From: Lachnospiraceae bacterium
GTDB lineage: Bacteria > Bacillota > Clostridia > Lachnospirales > Lachnospiraceae
Assembly (NCBI GenBank): GCA_017480445.1
Contig: JAFVAO010000054.1
Location: forward strand, 1-53,955
Direction of reading: 5' to 3'
Length of the DNA stretch: 53,955 nucleotides
The position numbers and the translations under genes were made by a program. The notes beneath the pieces are model-generated. The model did not search any database and was not told the origin of the DNA. It saw nothing but the letters and a program-made list of their open reading frames with translations. This document shows, piece by piece, positions 12,738 to 20,046 of this stretch (position 1 is the stretch's first letter; every line of letters begins with the position of its first letter).

Positions 12738-12766
12738 TTGACATGGCGCAAGACATGCGATATAAT
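12738..12766 (+). promoter_or_regulatory. Perfect consensus sigma-A promoter for tRNA-Gly
   Basis: TTGACA (12738-12743), 17-base spacer, TATAAT (12761-12766): both hexamers and spacing are exact consensus. The tRNA begins 32 bases after the -10. Confidence 0.92.
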
Positions 12767-12797
12767 ACTTTATGTTCGCAAGTAAAAATTGTGTCAT

Positions 12798-12869
<72 letters not shown>

Positions 12870-12883
12870 TTTTTATTGCAGAA

Positions 12884-12912
12884 AGGCGGTTGTGCGATAT
12901 GCACAGCCGCCT
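12884..12912 (+). terminator. Hairpin after tRNA-Gly, probable terminator
   Basis: A 12-bp stem (12884-12895 with 12901-12912, one G-T pair) around a 5-base loop, 14 bases after the tRNA. A T run (12869-12874) follows the tRNA directly; the tail after the hairpin is only moderately T-rich. Confidence 0.5.
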
Positions 12913-13037: not shown

Positions 13038-13823
13038 TTACCCCTGCGTGTATCTGGTCAGGAATTGTCTGGTGCGTTCCTCTCTGGGCGCTTCAATCAC
13101 CTGTCTCGCATCGCCCTGCTCCACGATGACACCGCCGTCCATGAAGATGATCTGATCTGCCACATCTCTTGCAAACGCCATCTCATGGGTCACGATGATC
13201 ATCGTTGTCTTTTGCTCCGCCAGTTCCCGGATCACCCGCAGCACTTCTCCGGTAAGCTCCGGATCCAACGCGGAGGTCGGCTCGTCAAAACAGAGAATGT
13301 CCGGTTTCAGCGCAAGCGCCCTTGCTATCGCCACACGCTGCTGCTGCCCTCCGGAGAGCTGGTGCGGATAGTGCTCCATCCGGTCTTCCAGCCCCATCTG
13401 CAGAAGCAGATCCTTACCCTGCTCGTTGATCTCGGCAAGGATCTCATTTTTTCTGCTCTTATAATCCGGCTGCTCCTTGGCCAGGAGCTCCTTCGCCAGC
13501 GTCACATTCTGCAGCGCCGTATACTGCGGGAACAGGTGAAACGCCTGGAACACCATGCCAAAATGCAGACGTTTCTTCCGAAGCTCCGCATCTCTTCCCT
13601 TATTCGCCCGCGCGGCGTCGAACAGTACCTCACCCTTTACAGAGATGGTCCCGCCGTCCGGAACCTCCAGAAAATTCAGGCAGCGCAGCAATGTCGTTTT
13701 GCCGGAACCGGAGGAACCGATGATTGCCAGCGCCTTGCCCTCTTCCAAAGAGAAGCTGACGTCCTGCAGAACTTCGGTATTTCCAAAGTGCTTTTCGATA
13801 TGATTTACCTCTAAGATCGCCAT
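13038..13823 (-). CDS. Polar amino acid ABC transporter, ATP-binding protein
   Basis: 261-residue cytoplasmic ATPase of a GlnQ/HisP-type importer. Walker A GSSGSGKTT, Q-loop QAFHLFPQ, signature LSGGQQQR, Walker B ILCFDEPTSALD and the switch His in VTHEMAFARDV are all present. It is last in a binding protein - permease - ATPase operon, 12 bases after the permease stop. Confidence 0.95.
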   Translation of the reverse strand: MAILEVNHIEKHFGNTEVLQDVSFSLEEGKALAIIGSSGSGKTTLLRCLNFLEVPDGGTISVKGEVLFDAARANKGRDAELRKKRLHFGMVFQAFHLFPQYTALQNVTLAKELLAKEQPDYKSRKNEILAEINEQGKDLLLQMGLEDRMEHYPHQLSGGQQQRVAIARALALKPDILCFDEPTSALDPELTGEVLRVIRELAEQKTTMIIVTHEMAFARDVADQIIFMDGGVIVEQGDARQVIEAPREERTRQFLTRYTQG

Positions 13824-13835
13824 TTGTCCGCCTCC

Positions 13836-14492
13836 TTACCTGAAATAATCCAGCTTGCGCTCTATAAAGTGAAACAGAAGCGTCAGGATGCCCACGAAAA
13901 TCAGATAGAAGACACCTGTGTAAAACAGCGGCCACGTAATGCCGGCTGATTTCATAAAAGAATACCCGGCAAAGGTCAGCTCGTACGCAGCGATGATTCT
14001 GGCAATCGCCGTATCCTTCACCAGCGTAATCACTTCGTTGGACATAGGCGGAACCACTCGCTTGATCATTTGCAGCAACGTCACCTTGAAAAAGATCTGA
14101 GACTTGGTCATCCCAAGCACCTGCCCGGCCTCTCTCTGTCCGACCGGAACCCCTTCGATGCCGCCGCGGAAAATGACCGAGAAATAACACGCATAGTTGA
14201 TCACAAACGCAACCACCGTCGCCGTGATACGTCCCTTTTCACCGCCGTTCCAAATGTTGTGCCCAAGCCACAAACCCGGCCCGTAGAAAATAATGATCAA
14301 CTGCAGCATTAACGGCGTCCCCCGCACGATCCACACCAGCACCTCTGTCAGGTACTTCAGGGGCTTCCACTTGCTCATACTGCAAAATCCCACGAGCAAC
14401 CCGAGCGGAAGGGCAAACAAAAGCGTCAATATGAAAATTTCAAAGGTTGTCCCCAGACCACTTAACAGGGATTTCGTTACTGTCCAAAACAT
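13836..14492 (-). CDS. Polar amino acid ABC transporter, permease
   Basis: 218-residue HisM-type membrane subunit with about five hydrophobic spans. The cytoplasmic EAA loop that contacts the ATPase is visible as EAGQVLGMTKSQIFFKVTL, and IVRGTPLMLQ is the typical family motif. Only one permease gene is present, so it would act as a homodimer. It starts 9 bases after the binding-protein gene. Confidence 0.94.
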   Translation of the reverse strand: MFWTVTKSLLSGLGTTFEIFILTLLFALPLGLLVGFCSMSKWKPLKYLTEVLVWIVRGTPLMLQLIIIFYGPGLWLGHNIWNGGEKGRITATVVAFVINYACYFSVIFRGGIEGVPVGQREAGQVLGMTKSQIFFKVTLLQMIKRVVPPMSNEVITLVKDTAIARIIAAYELTFAGYSFMKSAGITWPLFYTGVFYLIFVGILTLLFHFIERKLDYFR

Positions 14493-14501
14493 ATCAGACT
14501 C

Positions 14502-15356
14502 CTATTTGTTTACTACAACCACCTGTGCATTGTTGCAATATGCATTTGTGCACTGCATGGATTCCTTTACCTCATTGGTCAATGTCATACCGTTCCATAC
14601 CACATCGATATTCTTGGAATCGAGCTCCATGATCTTGTTGTCCCAATCGATCTCAACAAACTCTGCCTGCACACCGAGCTTGTCTGCCACGATGCGCGCC
14701 ATATCTGCGTCAAAACCGATCCACTCATTCGCGTCGTTCTTGTAATCCATCGGTGCAAAATCCGTAATACCGATGATCAGCGTACCCTTGCCCTGAATAT
14801 AAGCTACGTCTCCATCCTGCTCAGAAGCCTCGAACTGCACGGGTGCCTGCGCTACCAGAGATTCCTGTACGCCGTAGGTCTGCGCGATCGTCTGCAGAGA
14901 ACCGTCCGCATAGCAATCCGCGAACACTGCATTGATATAAGCAGCCAGATCGGAACCCTTCCGGCATCCCACACCGTATTCCTCTGTCGTCAGCTCCTCC
15001 GTGTGAATCATGTTCGGATAGCTGGTGCCCTCGCCGATCATAGCGCCTGCCATCAGCAGGTCAATGATTGCTGCGTCAGATGTGCCGGAAGCAACCTCCA
15101 TCAGTGCGTCCGCCTGGGAAGCAACAGAATTCACGCGAAATCCCTTTTCCAGTGCAACCTCCTCGCCGGCACTGCCCGCCTCTACCGCATAGACCAGCTG
15201 CTTTCCGTCGTCAGCAGATGCGGAAGACGCAGCCGCCTCAGAAGATGCCGCGCTGCTCGCTCCCGAAGCCGTGTTCGTGTCTGCGGAACCGCAGCCGGCC
15301 AACAAAAGACCCACCGTCATGCTCATTGTCAGTAACATTGCAATTCTTTTCTTCAT
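14502..15356 (-). CDS. Amino acid ABC transporter substrate-binding lipoprotein, circularly permuted
   Basis: 284 residues. Signal peptide with lipobox LAGC (Cys 22) and a Ser/Ala linker to about residue 50. The SBP_bac_3 fold is in the wrong order: residues 51-165 correspond to what is normally the second half (LVYAVEAGSAGEE, GTSDAAIIDLLMA, TTEEYGVGCRKGSDL, YADGSLQTIAQTYG), while residues 191-284 correspond to the normal N-terminal half (GTLIIGITDFAPMDY, EWIGFDADMARIVADKLGV, DVVWNGMTLT, NAQVVVV). The cut falls at the inter-lobe hinge, and residues 166-190 join the old termini. Start ATG 15356 has GGAGGAG 6 bases upstream. First gene of the transporter operon. Confidence 0.93.
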   Translation of the reverse strand: MKKRIAMLLTMSMTVGLLLAGCGSADTNTASGASSAASSEAAASSASADDGKQLVYAVEAGSAGEEVALEKGFRVNSVASQADALMEVASGTSDAAIIDLLMAGAMIGEGTSYPNMIHTEELTTEEYGVGCRKGSDLAAYINAVFADCYADGSLQTIAQTYGVQESLVAQAPVQFEASEQDGDVAYIQGKGTLIIGITDFAPMDYKNDANEWIGFDADMARIVADKLGVQAEFVEIDWDNKIMELDSKNIDVVWNGMTLTNEVKESMQCTNAYCNNAQVVVVNK

Positions 15357-15426: not shown

Positions 15427-15465
15427 TAAAAAAAGAAACGGCAATCGCTGTAAAAACGATTGCCG
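15427..15465 (-). terminator. Rho-independent terminator of the GH3 gene
   Basis: Minus-strand perfect 9-bp stem (15457-15465 with 15439-15447), 9-base loop, followed by a T-rich tail over 15427-15438. It starts 7 bases after the GH3 stop codon and separates that gene from the ABC operon. Confidence 0.9.
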
Positions 15466-15471
15466 CACACT

Positions 15472-16797
15472 TTATTCTTCTGCTATTTTGTCTGCGTATT
15501 TGATCCGGTAAACTCTCCGGAGGGAATCATTGATGCGATCCTCGGAGATCACACCGTTTTGTACCGCCTCCAGCACGCCGTTGTACGCGGTTTCAAAATT
15601 CTCCGGCATCAGAATCATATCACAGCCGGCGCGCAGTGCCATCACTGCCGCCTCATCCGCACCGTAATACTCAGTGACCGCGGAGATATTCATGGCATCC
15701 GTGATAATCACTCCGTCAAATCCCAGCTCTTTCCGCAGGATATCTGTAACCACCTTGTCAGACATGGAACAGGGCGTGTTATCCCCCGACAGAGCAGGTG
15801 CCGCCATATGGCTTACCAGTATCATATCCGCTCCCGCGTCGATCCCTGCCTGGAACACTTTGAATTCATTGGCCCTGAAATCCTCCGCCGATCTGTCCGT
15901 AGAGGCAAGTCCTTTGTCTGTATCCTGTGTGGTACTGCCCATGCCGGGGAAATGCTTCAGGCAAGCGCTGACGCCCTGTCCTTCCAGACCCTCCACCATG
16001 GCCGTCACAAAAGGAATCACCGCATCCGCGTCCGCACCGTAAGCTCTCTTGGCCATTACAGAGCCGTCCACATTCGCCAGATCCGCAACGGGCGCAAAAT
16101 CCAGATTGAATCCGTAATCAGCAAGATAGGTTCCAATGGCAGTTCCGGCCTCGGACGCCTTGGACGCATCGCCTCCCTCGCCCAGCTTTACCGCGCCCTC
16201 CTGCTTTGCCACGAGACCTTTCCCTTCCAGGGGGCTGACGCTTCCGCCCTCATCCTCAATCGCGACGAACAACGGATAGTTGGCGTACAGCTTCGTCGTG
16301 GAGATCATTTCCTTAAACTGCGCCTCAGTCTGAATATTTTTGGTATTGTAGACAATGCCGCCCACCGAATACTTGGTCAGTGCATCCTTGGTTCCGTTTC
16401 CGGCTTTCACCGCCGTATTGACACCCGTGATAGACTCCGGTGTCACCACGAACAGTCCTGCAACCTTATCCTCCAGGGGCATCACCTCGATCCCCGCATT
16501 CACGATCTCATCCAGTTTCTGCTCCGGCGTCAGCTCCGGAACCGTCTCCTCGGTGGCGCTCTCCGTCTCCGGCGCCGTCAGGGACTCCTCCGTGCTGAGC
16601 ATCTGGTCAACCTGCTCCTGCTTCTCCTGCTCATTCTGCCTGCTCTGCTTCGTCAGGAAATTGACGCCGAACACGATGCCGCCCGCCAGCACGGCCAGGA
16701 AAAGAATCAATGTGATATATGCCAAAATCTGATTGCGCACGCGCCGCTTTCTCCTCGCCTCGCGACGCTGCTGCTGATTGGTTGTATTCTGATCCAT
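15472..16797 (-). CDS. Membrane-anchored GH3-family protein (NagZ-like) with altered catalytic motif
   Basis: 441 residues: one membrane span (about 24-46) preceded by a very basic stretch, an acidic Thr/Glu linker (about 55-92), then a glycoside hydrolase family 3 TIM barrel. NagZ-type enzymes release N-acetylglucosamine from peptidoglycan. The nucleophile Asp is kept (IITDAMN, Asp 367), but the catalytic loop reads KHFPGMG-TTQDTDKGL (281-297): the His of the family D-x-H dyad is Asp 294, and the FPGHG His is Met. It may be inactive, slow, or use another acid. ATG 16797 has GAGGAG 8 bases upstream. A likely -10 TATGAT is at 16854-16859. Confidence 0.85.
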   Translation of the reverse strand: MDQNTTNQQQRREARRKRRVRNQILAYITLILFLAVLAGGIVFGVNFLTKQSRQNEQEKQEQVDQMLSTEESLTAPETESATEETVPELTPEQKLDEIVNAGIEVMPLEDKVAGLFVVTPESITGVNTAVKAGNGTKDALTKYSVGGIVYNTKNIQTEAQFKEMISTTKLYANYPLFVAIEDEGGSVSPLEGKGLVAKQEGAVKLGEGGDASKASEAGTAIGTYLADYGFNLDFAPVADLANVDGSVMAKRAYGADADAVIPFVTAMVEGLEGQGVSACLKHFPGMGSTTQDTDKGLASTDRSAEDFRANEFKVFQAGIDAGADMILVSHMAAPALSGDNTPCSMSDKVVTDILRKELGFDGVIITDAMNISAVTEYYGADEAAVMALRAGCDMILMPENFETAYNGVLEAVQNGVISEDRINDSLRRVYRIKYADKIAEE

Positions 16798-17422
16798 TCT
16801 CAAAACTCCTCTGCAGATAAATTTAAAAAACTGCTTAAAATATTCCATGTCCTATCATACATTACTTTTCGACTTTTTTCCACACTAAATCTTGAATTTT
16901 ACACTCTTTTTATGAAATCAGGGATACAACGACTGAGAGCGTATCGATCAACTGCATCAATACGCTCTCTCAAACTATGCTATCCAATGGACCCTACCTC
17001 TCTTTCTCTTATTTGCTTTCGCCTATTGTAGGTCTTAGCATATCCCCTATTCAGTTGTACTCCATCTTCCACCTCATCCTTGGTATCTTTCCACATTCTC
17101 ATTCGTATGTTGATACTGTAACGTTCCAAGATCTTTTCCTCTTTGGTAATGCGCTACTTTCTCTTCTGTGTACTCGATTCATCTATGTTAACGTTTATCG
17201 AAGGGCCGTGCGCCCTGTAACACAAAATCTTTGGTACCTTGATGGAAGATGCTTTTAAGTTGTCTCACCTCTCTCTTGTTGTTGAATTAACTATACCATG
17301 TGTCTCGACATTTGTCAACACATTTTTCCAAAAAATTTTTATTTTTTTGTATTTTCTTTTCGCGCAAATTATTTTTCAAAATATTTCGGCAAATCCTGAC
17401 AATTATCGCAAAATTTTCCGTA
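16798..17422. other. 625-base region without a convincing gene; possible degraded coding remnant
   Basis: It holds the probable GH3 leader and -10 (16854-16859), a 10-bp inverted repeat (16935-16944 with 16960-16969), and a stretch around 16980-17260 that looks like decayed coding sequence on the minus strand. There, a 57-codon open frame (16980-17150) reads ERYSINIRMRMWKDTKDEVE and continues as a hydrophilic Arg/Lys/Glu-rich peptide; a separate frame upstream reads IFHQGTKDFVLQGARPFDKR. No start codon joins them. I do not recognise the family. 17280-17422 is very A/T-rich. Confidence 0.4.
16935..16969. repeat. 10-bp inverted repeat
   Basis: GAGAGCGTAT (16935-16944) and ATACGCTCTC (16960-16969) are perfect arms around a 15-base loop. 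There is no good T tail on either strand, so a terminator is doubtful; it could mark the end of a lost element. Confidence 0.6.
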
Positions 17423-17462: not shown

Positions 17463-18782
17463 TTAAATGCGTGTCTCTACAAAAATACTGTAAATGGCCT
17501 TGATCGCCGTTTCAAAATCCTCGTCAGACACACCGATGATGATGTTTTGCTCCGAAGAACCCTGATCAATCATTTTGACATTGACGTGACTGTGTGCCAG
17601 CGCAGAGAAGATTCTTCCCGCTGTACCGCGGGCCGATTTCATCCCTCTGCCCACCACGGCGATCAGCGCGATATCCGACTCGATTTCGATATTGTCCGGC
17701 TGTGCCAGGCGATGAATGCCCGCCACGACCTGCTGCTCTTTGTTCATGAATTCATCCTGATGCACAAACACCGTCATCGTGTCAATGCCCGACGGCACAT
17801 GCTCAAAGGAGATCTCCTGATCCTCGAAAGCCTGCAGCACCTTTCTGCCAAAGCCGATCTCCGCATTCATCATATCTTTCTCAATATTGATGGAGCAGAA
17901 TCCTTTCTTGCCGGCGATACCCGTGATGACGTACTTGGACTTCTGACAGGTGCTGCCCACAATCCATGTGCCTGTATCCTCCGGCGCATTGGTATTCTTG
18001 ATATTGATGGGGATACCCTGCTGGCGAACCGGAAAGATTGCGTCCTCATGCAACACACTCGCGCCCATATAGGAGAGCTCCCGCAGTTCCTTGTAAGTGA
18101 TCACTTCAATGCTCTCGGGATGGTCGATGATCCGCGGATCCGCAATCATAAAGCCGGACACATCCGTCCAGTTTTCGTATACATCCGCACCGGCTGCCTT
18201 CGCCACAATCGAACCGGTGACATCGGAGCCGCCTCGGGAGAAGGTCTTCACCGCTCCGTCCGGCAGGGAACCGTAAAATCCCGGGATGACCGCCTGTCTG
18301 CAGCTCTTCAGCTTCTCAGAGAGTACCGCATCGGTCCTGTCGGCATCAAACTCGCCTTTTTCATCAAAGAAAATCACGGTCGCGGCATCGATAAACTCGT
18401 AGCCGAGATACTTCGCCATGACAATCCCGTTCAGATACTCGCCTCTGGATGCGGCGTAATCTTTTCCTGCCTTCTCCTTGAACTTCGCCTCAATCGTTGC
18501 GAACTCATCCTTCAGGGAAAGCTGCAGCTTCAAGCCCTTGATGATCTCGTCATAACGCGCCTGAATCTCTTTTAACTCCTTGGAAAAATCCTGATCCGCA
18601 TCAGCCAATGCATAACAGGCATACAACATATCCGTCACCTTTGTATCCTTGGGATTCCGCTTTCCGGGTGCGGAGGGAACGACATATCTTCTGTGCTTAT
18701 CCGCACGAATGATCTCTCCTACCTTCTGAAACTGCTCTGCACTCGCCAGCGAACTACCACCGAATTTCACTACCTTTGACAT
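17463..18782 (-). CDS. lysC: Aspartate kinase
   Basis: Phosphorylates aspartate at the head of lysine, threonine and methionine synthesis. 439 residues: N-terminal kinase domain with VVKFGGSSLA, FSRGGSDVTGS and an aspartate/ATP-binding DADRTDA-type region; two C-terminal ACT domains from about residue 300, where feedback inhibitors bind. Monofunctional. It follows hom (52-base gap) and the ACT-domain gene, so all three are likely cotranscribed. ATG 18782 has GGAG and AAAGG upstream. The last gene of its operon, closed by a strong terminator. Confidence 0.93.
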   Translation of the reverse strand: MSKVVKFGGSSLASAEQFQKVGEIIRADKHRRYVVPSAPGKRNPKDTKVTDMLYACYALADADQDFSKELKEIQARYDEIIKGLKLQLSLKDEFATIEAKFKEKAGKDYAASRGEYLNGIVMAKYLGYEFIDAATVIFFDEKGEFDADRTDAVLSEKLKSCRQAVIPGFYGSLPDGAVKTFSRGGSDVTGSIVAKAAGADVYENWTDVSGFMIADPRIIDHPESIEVITYKELRELSYMGASVLHEDAIFPVRQQGIPINIKNTNAPEDTGTWIVGSTCQKSKYVITGIAGKKGFCSINIEKDMMNAEIGFGRKVLQAFEDQEISFEHVPSGIDTMTVFVHQDEFMNKEQQVVAGIHRLAQPDNIEIESDIALIAVVGRGMKSARGTAGRIFSALAHSHVNVKMIDQGSSEQNIIIGVSDEDFETAIKAIYSIFVETRI

Positions 18783-18834
18783 ACCTTTCTACTCCTCAGA
18801 TTTTCTTCTATAATTTTGCTTAAAACAAATTCGT

Positions 18835-20046
18835 CTAAAACATACGAATATGACTCAACACAGCTGCCCCCAGACTCTCGCAGAGCTTCTCAAAATCACG
18901 CTCTCTGATCGGGTCGGTGAACACTGCAAAATCGTTCTCTCTGCCGGGCACCGTCATCGTCTCACATGGGCCGAACGCCGCGAGCACCTGCTCCTTGGCG
19001 GATACGTCTGCGCGCACAAAATAGCGGCTCGCCACATCGGCCTGATCCGCGAGTACTGCGTCCTCTTCCTCCCAGAAACACATGATCGTCTTGCCCAGAT
19101 GTCTCGCACAATCAATCACGTCGGAGACCACCGCGCTGGCCGTGGGCAGCTTTCCTGCGCCTCTGCCATAGTACATGGAATCTCCCAACATATTGCCTGT
19201 CACAAAGACTGCGTTGAACACGTCATTGACCATGCCGAGCGGATGCTCCTTATCCAACAGGAAGGGTGCCACCATGGCAAGCACCTGACCGTTTGCCAGG
19301 GCCTGGCTTTTCGCCAACAGCTTGATGGTCTTGCCGGCTGCATTGGCATAGACAAAGTCATCCGCCGTGATTTTGGTGATCCCTTCGGTATAAATCTTCT
19401 CGGAATCCACATTTTGGCCGGTCATGAGCGAGGACAAAATCGCAATCTTACGACATGCATCATGTCCCTCCACATCTGCCTCCGGATTTCGTTCCGCATA
19501 TCCCTTCTCCTGCGCCTCTTTCAACACGCTGTCAAAATCCGCGCCCTCGCGCTGCATTTTGGTCAGAATATAATTGGTCGTACCGTTCAGGATGCCGGTA
19601 ATAGATTCGATCTTTTCTGCGGTAAGCGAATAGTTTAACGGACGAATGATGGGGATTCCGCCGCCCACACTCGCCTCAAACAGATAGTTGCACTGGTTCT
19701 CCTTCGCCAGCTTCAAAAGTTCCGGTCCATGCTTCGCAACCAGCTCCTTATTGGAGGTGCAGACACTCTTTCCCTTCATAAGCGCTGCTTTGGTAAACTG
19801 ATACGCAACGCCGACACCGCCCATCACCTCACAAATGATGGAGATCTCCGCATCATTGATTATGGTATCAAAATCATGAATGATCTTTTCTTCATACGGG
19901 TCTCCGGGGAAATCCTTCAGATCCAGAATATACTTGACATTCAACTCCTGTCCGGACTTCTTGTTCACCATGTCCTTATTTTTCTCGATTACTTCTACCA
20001 CACCGCTTCCCACGGTGCCGTATCCCAACACTGCAACTTGAACCAT
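18835..20046 (-). CDS. hom: Homoserine dehydrogenase
   Basis: NAD(P)H-dependent reduction of aspartate semialdehyde to homoserine. 403 residues: Rossmann motif VLGYGTVGSGVVEVI at the N-terminus, CTSNKELVAKHG, the family signature ILNGTTNYILTKM and GYAERNPEADVEGHDACRK with the catalytic Asp/Lys region. A short C-terminal part follows (from about 330), which could be a reduced ACT-like domain. AAGGAG lies 7 bases before ATG 20046. Confidence 0.95.
   Translation of the reverse strand: MVQVAVLGYGTVGSGVVEVIEKNKDMVNKKSGQELNVKYILDLKDFPGDPYEEKIIHDFDTIINDAEISIICEVMGGVGVAYQFTKAALMKGKSVCTSNKELVAKHGPELLKLAKENQCNYLFEASVGGGIPIIRPLNYSLTAEKIESITGILNGTTNYILTKMQREGADFDSVLKEAQEKGYAERNPEADVEGHDACRKIAILSSLMTGQNVDSEKIYTEGITKITADDFVYANAAGKTIKLLAKSQALANGQVLAMVAPFLLDKEHPLGMVNDVFNAVFVTGNMLGDSMYYGRGAGKLPTASAVVSDVIDCARHLGKTIMCFWEEEDAVLADQADVASRYFVRADVSAKEQVLAAFGPCETMTVPGRENDFAVFTDPIRERDFEKLCESLGAAVLSHIRMF

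Follow-up and report, generated by a model that had tools for sequence, protein, structure and literature searches.

A predicted natural circular permutant of the SBP_bac_3 binding-protein family in an ABC importer operon of a Lachnospiraceae bacterium

Circular permutation is usually regarded as rare and is recovered by structure comparison. A natural case among lipoprotein binding proteins is TpMglB-2 (Tp0684), for which a type Ic (cluster Bc) was proposed. In this protein, the first three strands of the N-lobe are moved to the C-terminus and a fourth crossing is added, and both ligand binding and a conformational change were demonstrated experimentally (PMC4990184, available text). By this account, natural permutation is already known for type I binding proteins. 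An engineered case is the sensor R-ncp-iGluSnFR1, in which GltI was circularly permuted and glutamate was still bound (PMC6335823, available text); the GltI permutation is not mentioned in the available text of a review describing the sensor (PMC6819510). In the tandem substrate-binding domains of GlnPQ (6h30), two canonical domains placed head to tail contain the order lobe 2-1b-1a in frame, 1a and 1b being segments of lobe 1. No report of a natural permutant of the SBP_bac_3 family was found among the papers listed in searches of the open-access literature, and two papers on the detection of permutations contained none of the binding-protein terms.

The window, that is, the whole stretch of DNA analysed here (53,955 nucleotides from a Lachnospiraceae bacterium), encodes a protein that resembles GlnH, HisJ, ArtJ and TmArgBP of the SBP_bac_3 family (cluster F) in the homology of both lobes, in its lipobox and in its operon with a HEQRo-type permease and a GlnQ/TcyN-type ATPase. 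Unlike these four proteins, it has the order 2-1b-1a, its predicted termini lie in lobe 2, and the Arg that holds the ligand carboxylate is replaced by V/T. With TpMglB-2, as described in the available text, it shares the apparent circular permutation in nature of a lipoprotein substrate-binding protein (SBP). TpMglB-2, however, has a type I sugar-binding fold and a different break, and no MglB-type match to the window protein was present among the best 60 of 78 PDB matches. The GlnPQ tandem differs from the window protein in that both of its copies are complete and canonical and, by its title, belong to a permease protein. R-ncp-iGluSnFR1, according to its available description, is a man-made sensor derived from an unpermuted natural GltI, whereas the window protein is predicted to be a natural permutant. 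Judging from the sequence, the window gene very probably encodes the SBP of an importer and is a natural SBP_bac_3 permutant, with termini moved to lobe 2, that originated by duplication and arose once in its clade.

The operon and the order of the binding-protein segments

The window gene is best explained as encoding the substrate-binding lipoprotein of a polar-amino-acid-type ABC importer, in an operon of the order SBP-permease-ATPase. The features of the locus were as follows.

14502..15356, minus strand: predicted circularly permuted SBP_bac_3 lipoprotein gene, 284 aa (ORF, Pfam, PDB matches, doubled-copy alignment)
15291..15356, minus strand: signal peptide and lipobox (LAGC, Cys22), residues 1-22 (sequence reading)
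15201..15290, minus strand: tether from Cys22 to lobe 2, residues 23-52 (sequence; tether lengths of relatives)
14982..15200, minus strand: lobe 2 without its first strand, residues 53-125 (homology; exact limits inferred)
14868..14981, minus strand: second inter-lobe crossing and segment 1b, residues 126-163 (homology; exact limits inferred)
14790..14867, minus strand: junction of the old C- and N-termini, residues 164-189, QESLVAQ / APVQFEASEQ / DGDVAYIQG (comparison with canonical tails)
14541..14789, minus strand: lobe 1 segment 1a, residues 190-272 (Pfam, PDB matches, segment profiles)
14526..14540, minus strand: putative first inter-lobe crossing, residues 273-277 (homology)
14505..14525, minus strand: C-terminal strand Q278-V282 and two further residues, homologous to the first strand of lobe 2 (PDB lobe chains)
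13836..14492, minus strand: cognate ABC permease (BPD_transp_1; HEQRo_perm_3TM)
13038..13823, minus strand: cognate ABC ATPase (TcyN/GlnQ-like)
15438..15466, minus strand: candidate terminator-like hairpin between the upstream GH3 gene and the operon, weakly supported because the scan found 3 such hairpins where 2.7 were expected

The permease and ATPase genes come after the window gene, in agreement with the operon partners named in the original prediction. In a scan of genome contigs, at least 520 relatives were confirmed, and the best 80 were kept, ranked by similarity to the rotated query. The cognate permease was next within the distance limits in 77 of these 80 loci, and in the other three the open frame overlapped further; the ATPase was present in 76, and the other four stretches ended within approximately 1.6 kb of the start of the gene's frame. 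The permeases beside 15 of the 17 canonical orthologues examined were 56-67% identical to the permease of the window, and those beside other binding proteins tested were 27-41% identical to it. A matching permease was not found in the fetched stretches of two canonical loci (L019, L020) and two permuted loci (L272, L273). One further canonical orthologue (L017) had the same operon context and a frame that was broken in its genome, by mutation or assembly error.

The signal peptide claimed to be intact was indeed present, together with the lipobox. The promoter claimed alongside it did not stand out from chance in the scan (5 found; mean 3.1, sd 1.6), and a GGAGGAG sequence was visible upstream of the start of the window gene. 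The neighbouring minus-strand stretches 15472-16848 and 17463-20046 encode a family 3 glycoside hydrolase, an aspartate kinase and a homoserine dehydrogenase, with no obvious functional link to the transporter. Just past the end of the operon, the plus strand carries a consensus promoter match (12/12), a tRNA-Gly(gcc) and a 13-pair terminator-like hairpin (12738-12912).

The Pfam model SBP_bac_3 (PF00497) matched the window protein with 92.8 bits against a cut-off of 26.4, only over residues 194-284 (model positions 2-92 of 132); because only the 1a segment was reported, the protein looks truncated. When it was tested as a cluster F SBP, homology to solved chains pointed to the presence of both lobes and both inter-lobe crossings. 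The canonical order 1a-2-1b was absent, and the order 2-1b-1a was found with PDB matches, segment profiles and doubled copies alike; the protein was therefore filed as a permuted SBP_bac_3 variant. In the phmmer search against the PDB, each of the three alignments displayed contained two stretches of one chain in swapped order. Residues 6-104 of 6svf matched residues 187-284 of the window protein and 120-222 matched 55-157, with 58.8 and 30.0 bits. A single copy of a canonical orthologue matched the window protein as two swapped pieces for all four orthologues used (L280, L282, L018, L134). The doubled copy of each gave one colinear piece of 214-259 columns with 55-66% identity and E values of 2e-92 to 5e-110, one of them extending over 245 columns at 64% identity, and in a single canonical-versus-canonical control doubling brought no gain. 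Compared segment by segment, permuted and canonical orthologues were 60-74% identical. The canonical L018 was colinear with TIGR01096 (residues 63-278 on model positions 24-249), and the same model matched the window protein and its relative L028 in two stretches each. No solved permuted chain was present among the PDB matches listed. The window protein is thus identified by its sequence as a natural circular permutant of SBP_bac_3 (type II, cluster F) with the segments lobe 2-1b-linker-1a, as had been proposed at the outset.

The predicted break site, the junction and the ligand site

The break had originally been placed at the inter-lobe hinge. Residues Q278-V282 of the window protein align to residues 98-102 of 6svf. 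In 6gpm, an isolated lobe-2 chain of the Thermotoga arginine-binding protein (92 residues), residues 20-92 of the chain correspond to 116-188 of 6svf, so the chain should start at approximately 97, provided that its first 19 residues are native. In the isolated lobe-1 chains 6gpc, 6y16 and 7a99, the match ends before the strand equivalent to Q278-V282 and resumes at approximately 186. The isolated-lobe chains thereby place the C-terminal strand in lobe 2, and a break at the hinge was rejected on this homology. This strand is probably the first strand of lobe 2, and the chain appears to be opened in the lobe-2 loop that follows it, just past the hinge. Approximately 14 residues of this loop in the canonical orthologues are missing from the window protein.

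With the break in this position, neither inter-lobe crossing should be lost. The old termini, which both lay in lobe 1, would have been joined and new termini opened after the first strand of lobe 2, so that by homology the cleft between the two lobes should remain able to open and close and the lipid anchor would now lead into lobe 2 rather than lobe 1. The median tether length was 14 residues in the window clade (88 permuted proteins) versus 17 in canonical proteins (81 rows), and 6, 1, 19 and 1 in other permuted groups (6, 7, 9 and 5 rows), the tether start being taken from the profile envelope for the canonical and the other permuted groups, a measure that differs from that of the window clade. 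A shorter tether as a common effect of permutation was considered and found no support in the window clade.

The junction had been predicted at residues 166-190 (DNA 14787-14862), close to the position found here (164-189). Of its 26 residues, approximately 7 resemble an old C-terminus and approximately 9 an old N-terminal spacer. In the junction of the permuted relative L007, YGV is followed by QESLVEQ-AACEYVV-AAESDVAYIQG and then by KGTL. The canonical L280 ends with YGV, QDAVVAQ and a stop, and after its lipobox it begins with ...SSAAESDAAYIQD followed by KGTL. The middle of the junction in the window protein, APVQFEASEQ, is longer and less alike than in L007. From its sequence, the junction is read as the old C-terminus, about 7-10 unassigned residues and the old mature N-terminal spacer, and this composition fits a head-to-tail duplication with in-frame fusion and trimming.

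Most likely, the gene was duplicated head to tail and the copies were fused in frame; the first 1a segment would then have been deleted and the second copy cut short within its lobe 2, a route suggested by the junction and by natural tandem pairs. The solved tandem domains of GlnPQ (6h30) hold the permuted unit colinearly, residues 40-265 of the query corresponding to 103-324 of the chain. Among the loci collected, L173, examined up to its C-terminal part, encodes a canonical tandem, and L171 encodes a permuted tandem followed by a permease. No duplication intermediate was found within the window clade, and no direct or inverted repeats were detected as scars in the window gene at the settings used.

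In amino acid-binding SBPs, the Arg of a TxxR motif holds the α-carboxylate of the ligand, and an Asp of lobe 2 binds its α-amino group. The Arg is not kept in the window protein, in which V263 aligns to the Arg of the TEER motif of 6svf. At this position, 79 aligned clade members had V (69) or T (10) and none had Arg; a pattern count over 95 rows gave V 81, T 10 and G 4, and the aligned count is preferred. Canonical relatives had V in twelve cases (L018, L134-L137, L279-L285), L in L019 and M in L020. V was also present in L270, L271, L288 and L289, and Arg was kept in L272-L278, that is, in seven of the nine permuted relatives L270-L278. Because canonical relatives also carry V, the change came before the rotation. 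D99 aligns to the lobe-2 Asp of 6svf and was invariant in a 46-row alignment. The missing carboxylate Arg makes an amino acid doubtful as the ligand, and an amino-acid-like ligand is a guess from the sequence.

Three cysteines, C131, C269 and C274, were invariant in all 79 aligned clade members. All three were also present in the canonical L280 and L282, and the eight canonical relatives found first had F at position 131. A disulfide staple that replaced a lost crossing as a result of the permutation was rejected, since the canonical L280-L282 have C131 too and no crossing seems to have been lost. The three cysteines might still serve in a disulfide or in metal binding.

Conservation, origin and alternative explanations

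All of the best 80 loci had the rotated order and ended shortly after NAQV; since they were ranked by likeness to the rotated query, this is not a prevalence figure. They included records titled as the strains Roseburia porci, Bacterium 0.1xD8-71 and Bacterium 1xD42-87. Sixteen further binding-protein ORFs in these loci comprised 13 canonical and 3 unclear ones, two of the latter (L062, L105) being later classed as 1b-1a-2. Of the 61 genomes listed for the genus, 12 contained close colinear matches (11 besides the source genome); such matches were also found in 6 of 200 genomes drawn from the family, the source genome included, and in one genome (L133) besides the source genome among 299 drawn from the phylum. 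The dN/dS ratio was 0.018-0.112 in 21 of 23 close pairs, the other two giving no dS, and these values are rough for the 9 of 21 pairs in which dS exceeded 1. It may be concluded that the window gene is kept by selection. The search for homologues with the same order was thus successful, and the lone case that the original prediction implied turned out to be a member of a widespread clade in a family with further permutations.

For the 79-row thinning, the tethers, an early SBP tree and the junction comparison, members of the window clade were recognized by the presence of NAQV among their last 40 residues. The permease tree (42 of 45 rows) united the partners of 30 permuted proteins on one side with support of 100/99, nested among five canonical ones; it carries the caution that long branches of the outgroup join the ingroup, so that its root may be misplaced. 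In an SBP tree with closer canonical rows, which used 20 of the 30 thinned permuted rows together with L286 and L287, the permuted clade was again supported at 100/99 and lay among canonical rows; it adjoined the canonical L280-L282 at only 95/66. In a tree of 97 rows, the branches placing these rows were supported at 68/72 to 70/71. In two focused SBP trees without the closest canonical rows, the permuted rows did not form one side, and the AU test favoured neither arrangement (p 0.533 and 0.5). Taken together, the trees of the permeases and of the binding proteins point to a single origin for the window clade. Most likely, a canonical gene of the orthologous operon was permuted a single time, at the base of the clade.

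The source genome consists of 82 contigs at 83% completeness, and an assembly or binning artefact in which the halves were joined in the wrong order might be considered; it is hardly credible given that the order and the C-terminus are common to all 80 loci, strain records among them, that the gene is colinear in 11 other genomes of its genus, and that it and its close relatives are under purifying selection. A swapped order alone would also be compatible with a fusion of two partial genes, so that the lobe-2/1b half and the lobe-1a half would stem from two different binding-protein genes. Such a chimera is very unlikely: the nearest canonical relatives of the two halves are the same few proteins, separate quick trees of each half placed the window clade and L018-L020 on one side of a branch, and the junction is similar to the tails at the old C- and N-termini.

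Rather improbable, too, is that the permuted order was ancestral in the orthologous family and the canonical genes are reversions. Changes counted on an unrooted tree do not show whether an order was gained or lost, permuted types occupy the basal rows of the subfamily (L277 and L278, type A; L272-L276, type B), and the early SBP tree placed the outgroup among permuted rows. Against these points, the permuted clade is nested inside canonical ones in the permease tree, long branches notwithstanding, it lies among canonical rows in the SBP tree with closer relatives, and among the PDB matches listed (at most 60 per table, each with its best stretch) no solved chain but the tandem 6h30 matched a permuted query colinearly over most of its length. 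As for function, a short strand that subunits could exchange is left at the C-terminus by the break in lobe 2, and the chain might fold only as a domain-swapped dimer, or the protein might be a scavenging receptor that no longer serves its permease. This is unlikely, as conservation of the strand extends to the protein's end, the operon is kept, and glutamate is still bound by an engineered permutant of GltI, a member of this family (0.9 μM in the fusion; PMC6335823, available text). A single rotation of a canonical importer SBP is the preferred reading.

Further rotations in the family

Among 220 loci, segment profiles assigned 115 ORFs to 2-1b-1a, 102 to 1a-2-1b, 10 to 1b-1a-2 and 5 to a split inside lobe 2, some loci having been fetched twice and counted as such. 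Within the orthologous family of the window gene, L277 and L278 have its order at 43-46% identity, and L270-L276 have the order 1b-1a-2. This second rotation was found in at least two separate lineages (L117, L119-L123, L191, L062 and L256-L258, as well as L270-L276), and three more such genes were present among 20 stretches from genomes of the genus. A third break site, inside lobe 2 (2b-1b-1a-2a), was found in L169, L175 and L182, which are followed by permease and ATPase genes. Outside the orthologous family, lipoproteins of both rotated orders and SBP-permease fusions were found. In the profile-classified cases the new termini lie in lobe 2, a pattern that the queries used may have favoured.

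When 97 rows were rotated to the canonical order, the tree required 12 changes between canonical and permuted, at least 7 of them forced by well-supported branches; these changes may include reversions. L105_7300 and L004 were left out of this tree and of the half trees as long branches. A single clade of all permuted rows was rejected by the AU test on a tree of 79 rows, thinned by identity from 237 (p 1.4e-4), as was a single clade of all type A rows (p 2e-5), the groups tested having been named after the tree was viewed. One clade for the permuted rows also failed in the quick half trees (p 2e-7 and 7e-41). Most likely, other lineages of the family made comparable rotations independently.

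As a tentative proposal, in which we place somewhat less than even confidence, the type II binding proteins of this phylum may be a natural laboratory of circular permutation, with at least seven forced changes among 97 proteins, several of them in one orthologous operon family, and with both non-canonical rotations and a third break site. Termini in lobe 2 would keep the hinge crossings, and selection may repeatedly favour a tether, whether lipid or permease, that is moved from lobe 1 onto lobe 2, tandem duplication being the route. Because rotations recur and orthologues of both kinds, permuted and unpermuted, have the same partners in orthologous operons, both the route and the effect of chain order on fitness are testable. 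Repeated, apparently separate rotations provide a natural test bed for protein rewiring, and the window clade is a source of natural templates for sensors built on binding proteins whose termini have been relocated.

The source genome itself has four SBP_bac_3 matches, two of which are permuted, namely the window gene and L003 (G000:C60:8822-9106 region). L003 encodes a protein of 533 aa in which a permuted 2-1b-1a unit is fused directly to an ABC permease. L124, L129, L132 and the permuted tandem L171 group with L003 in trees.
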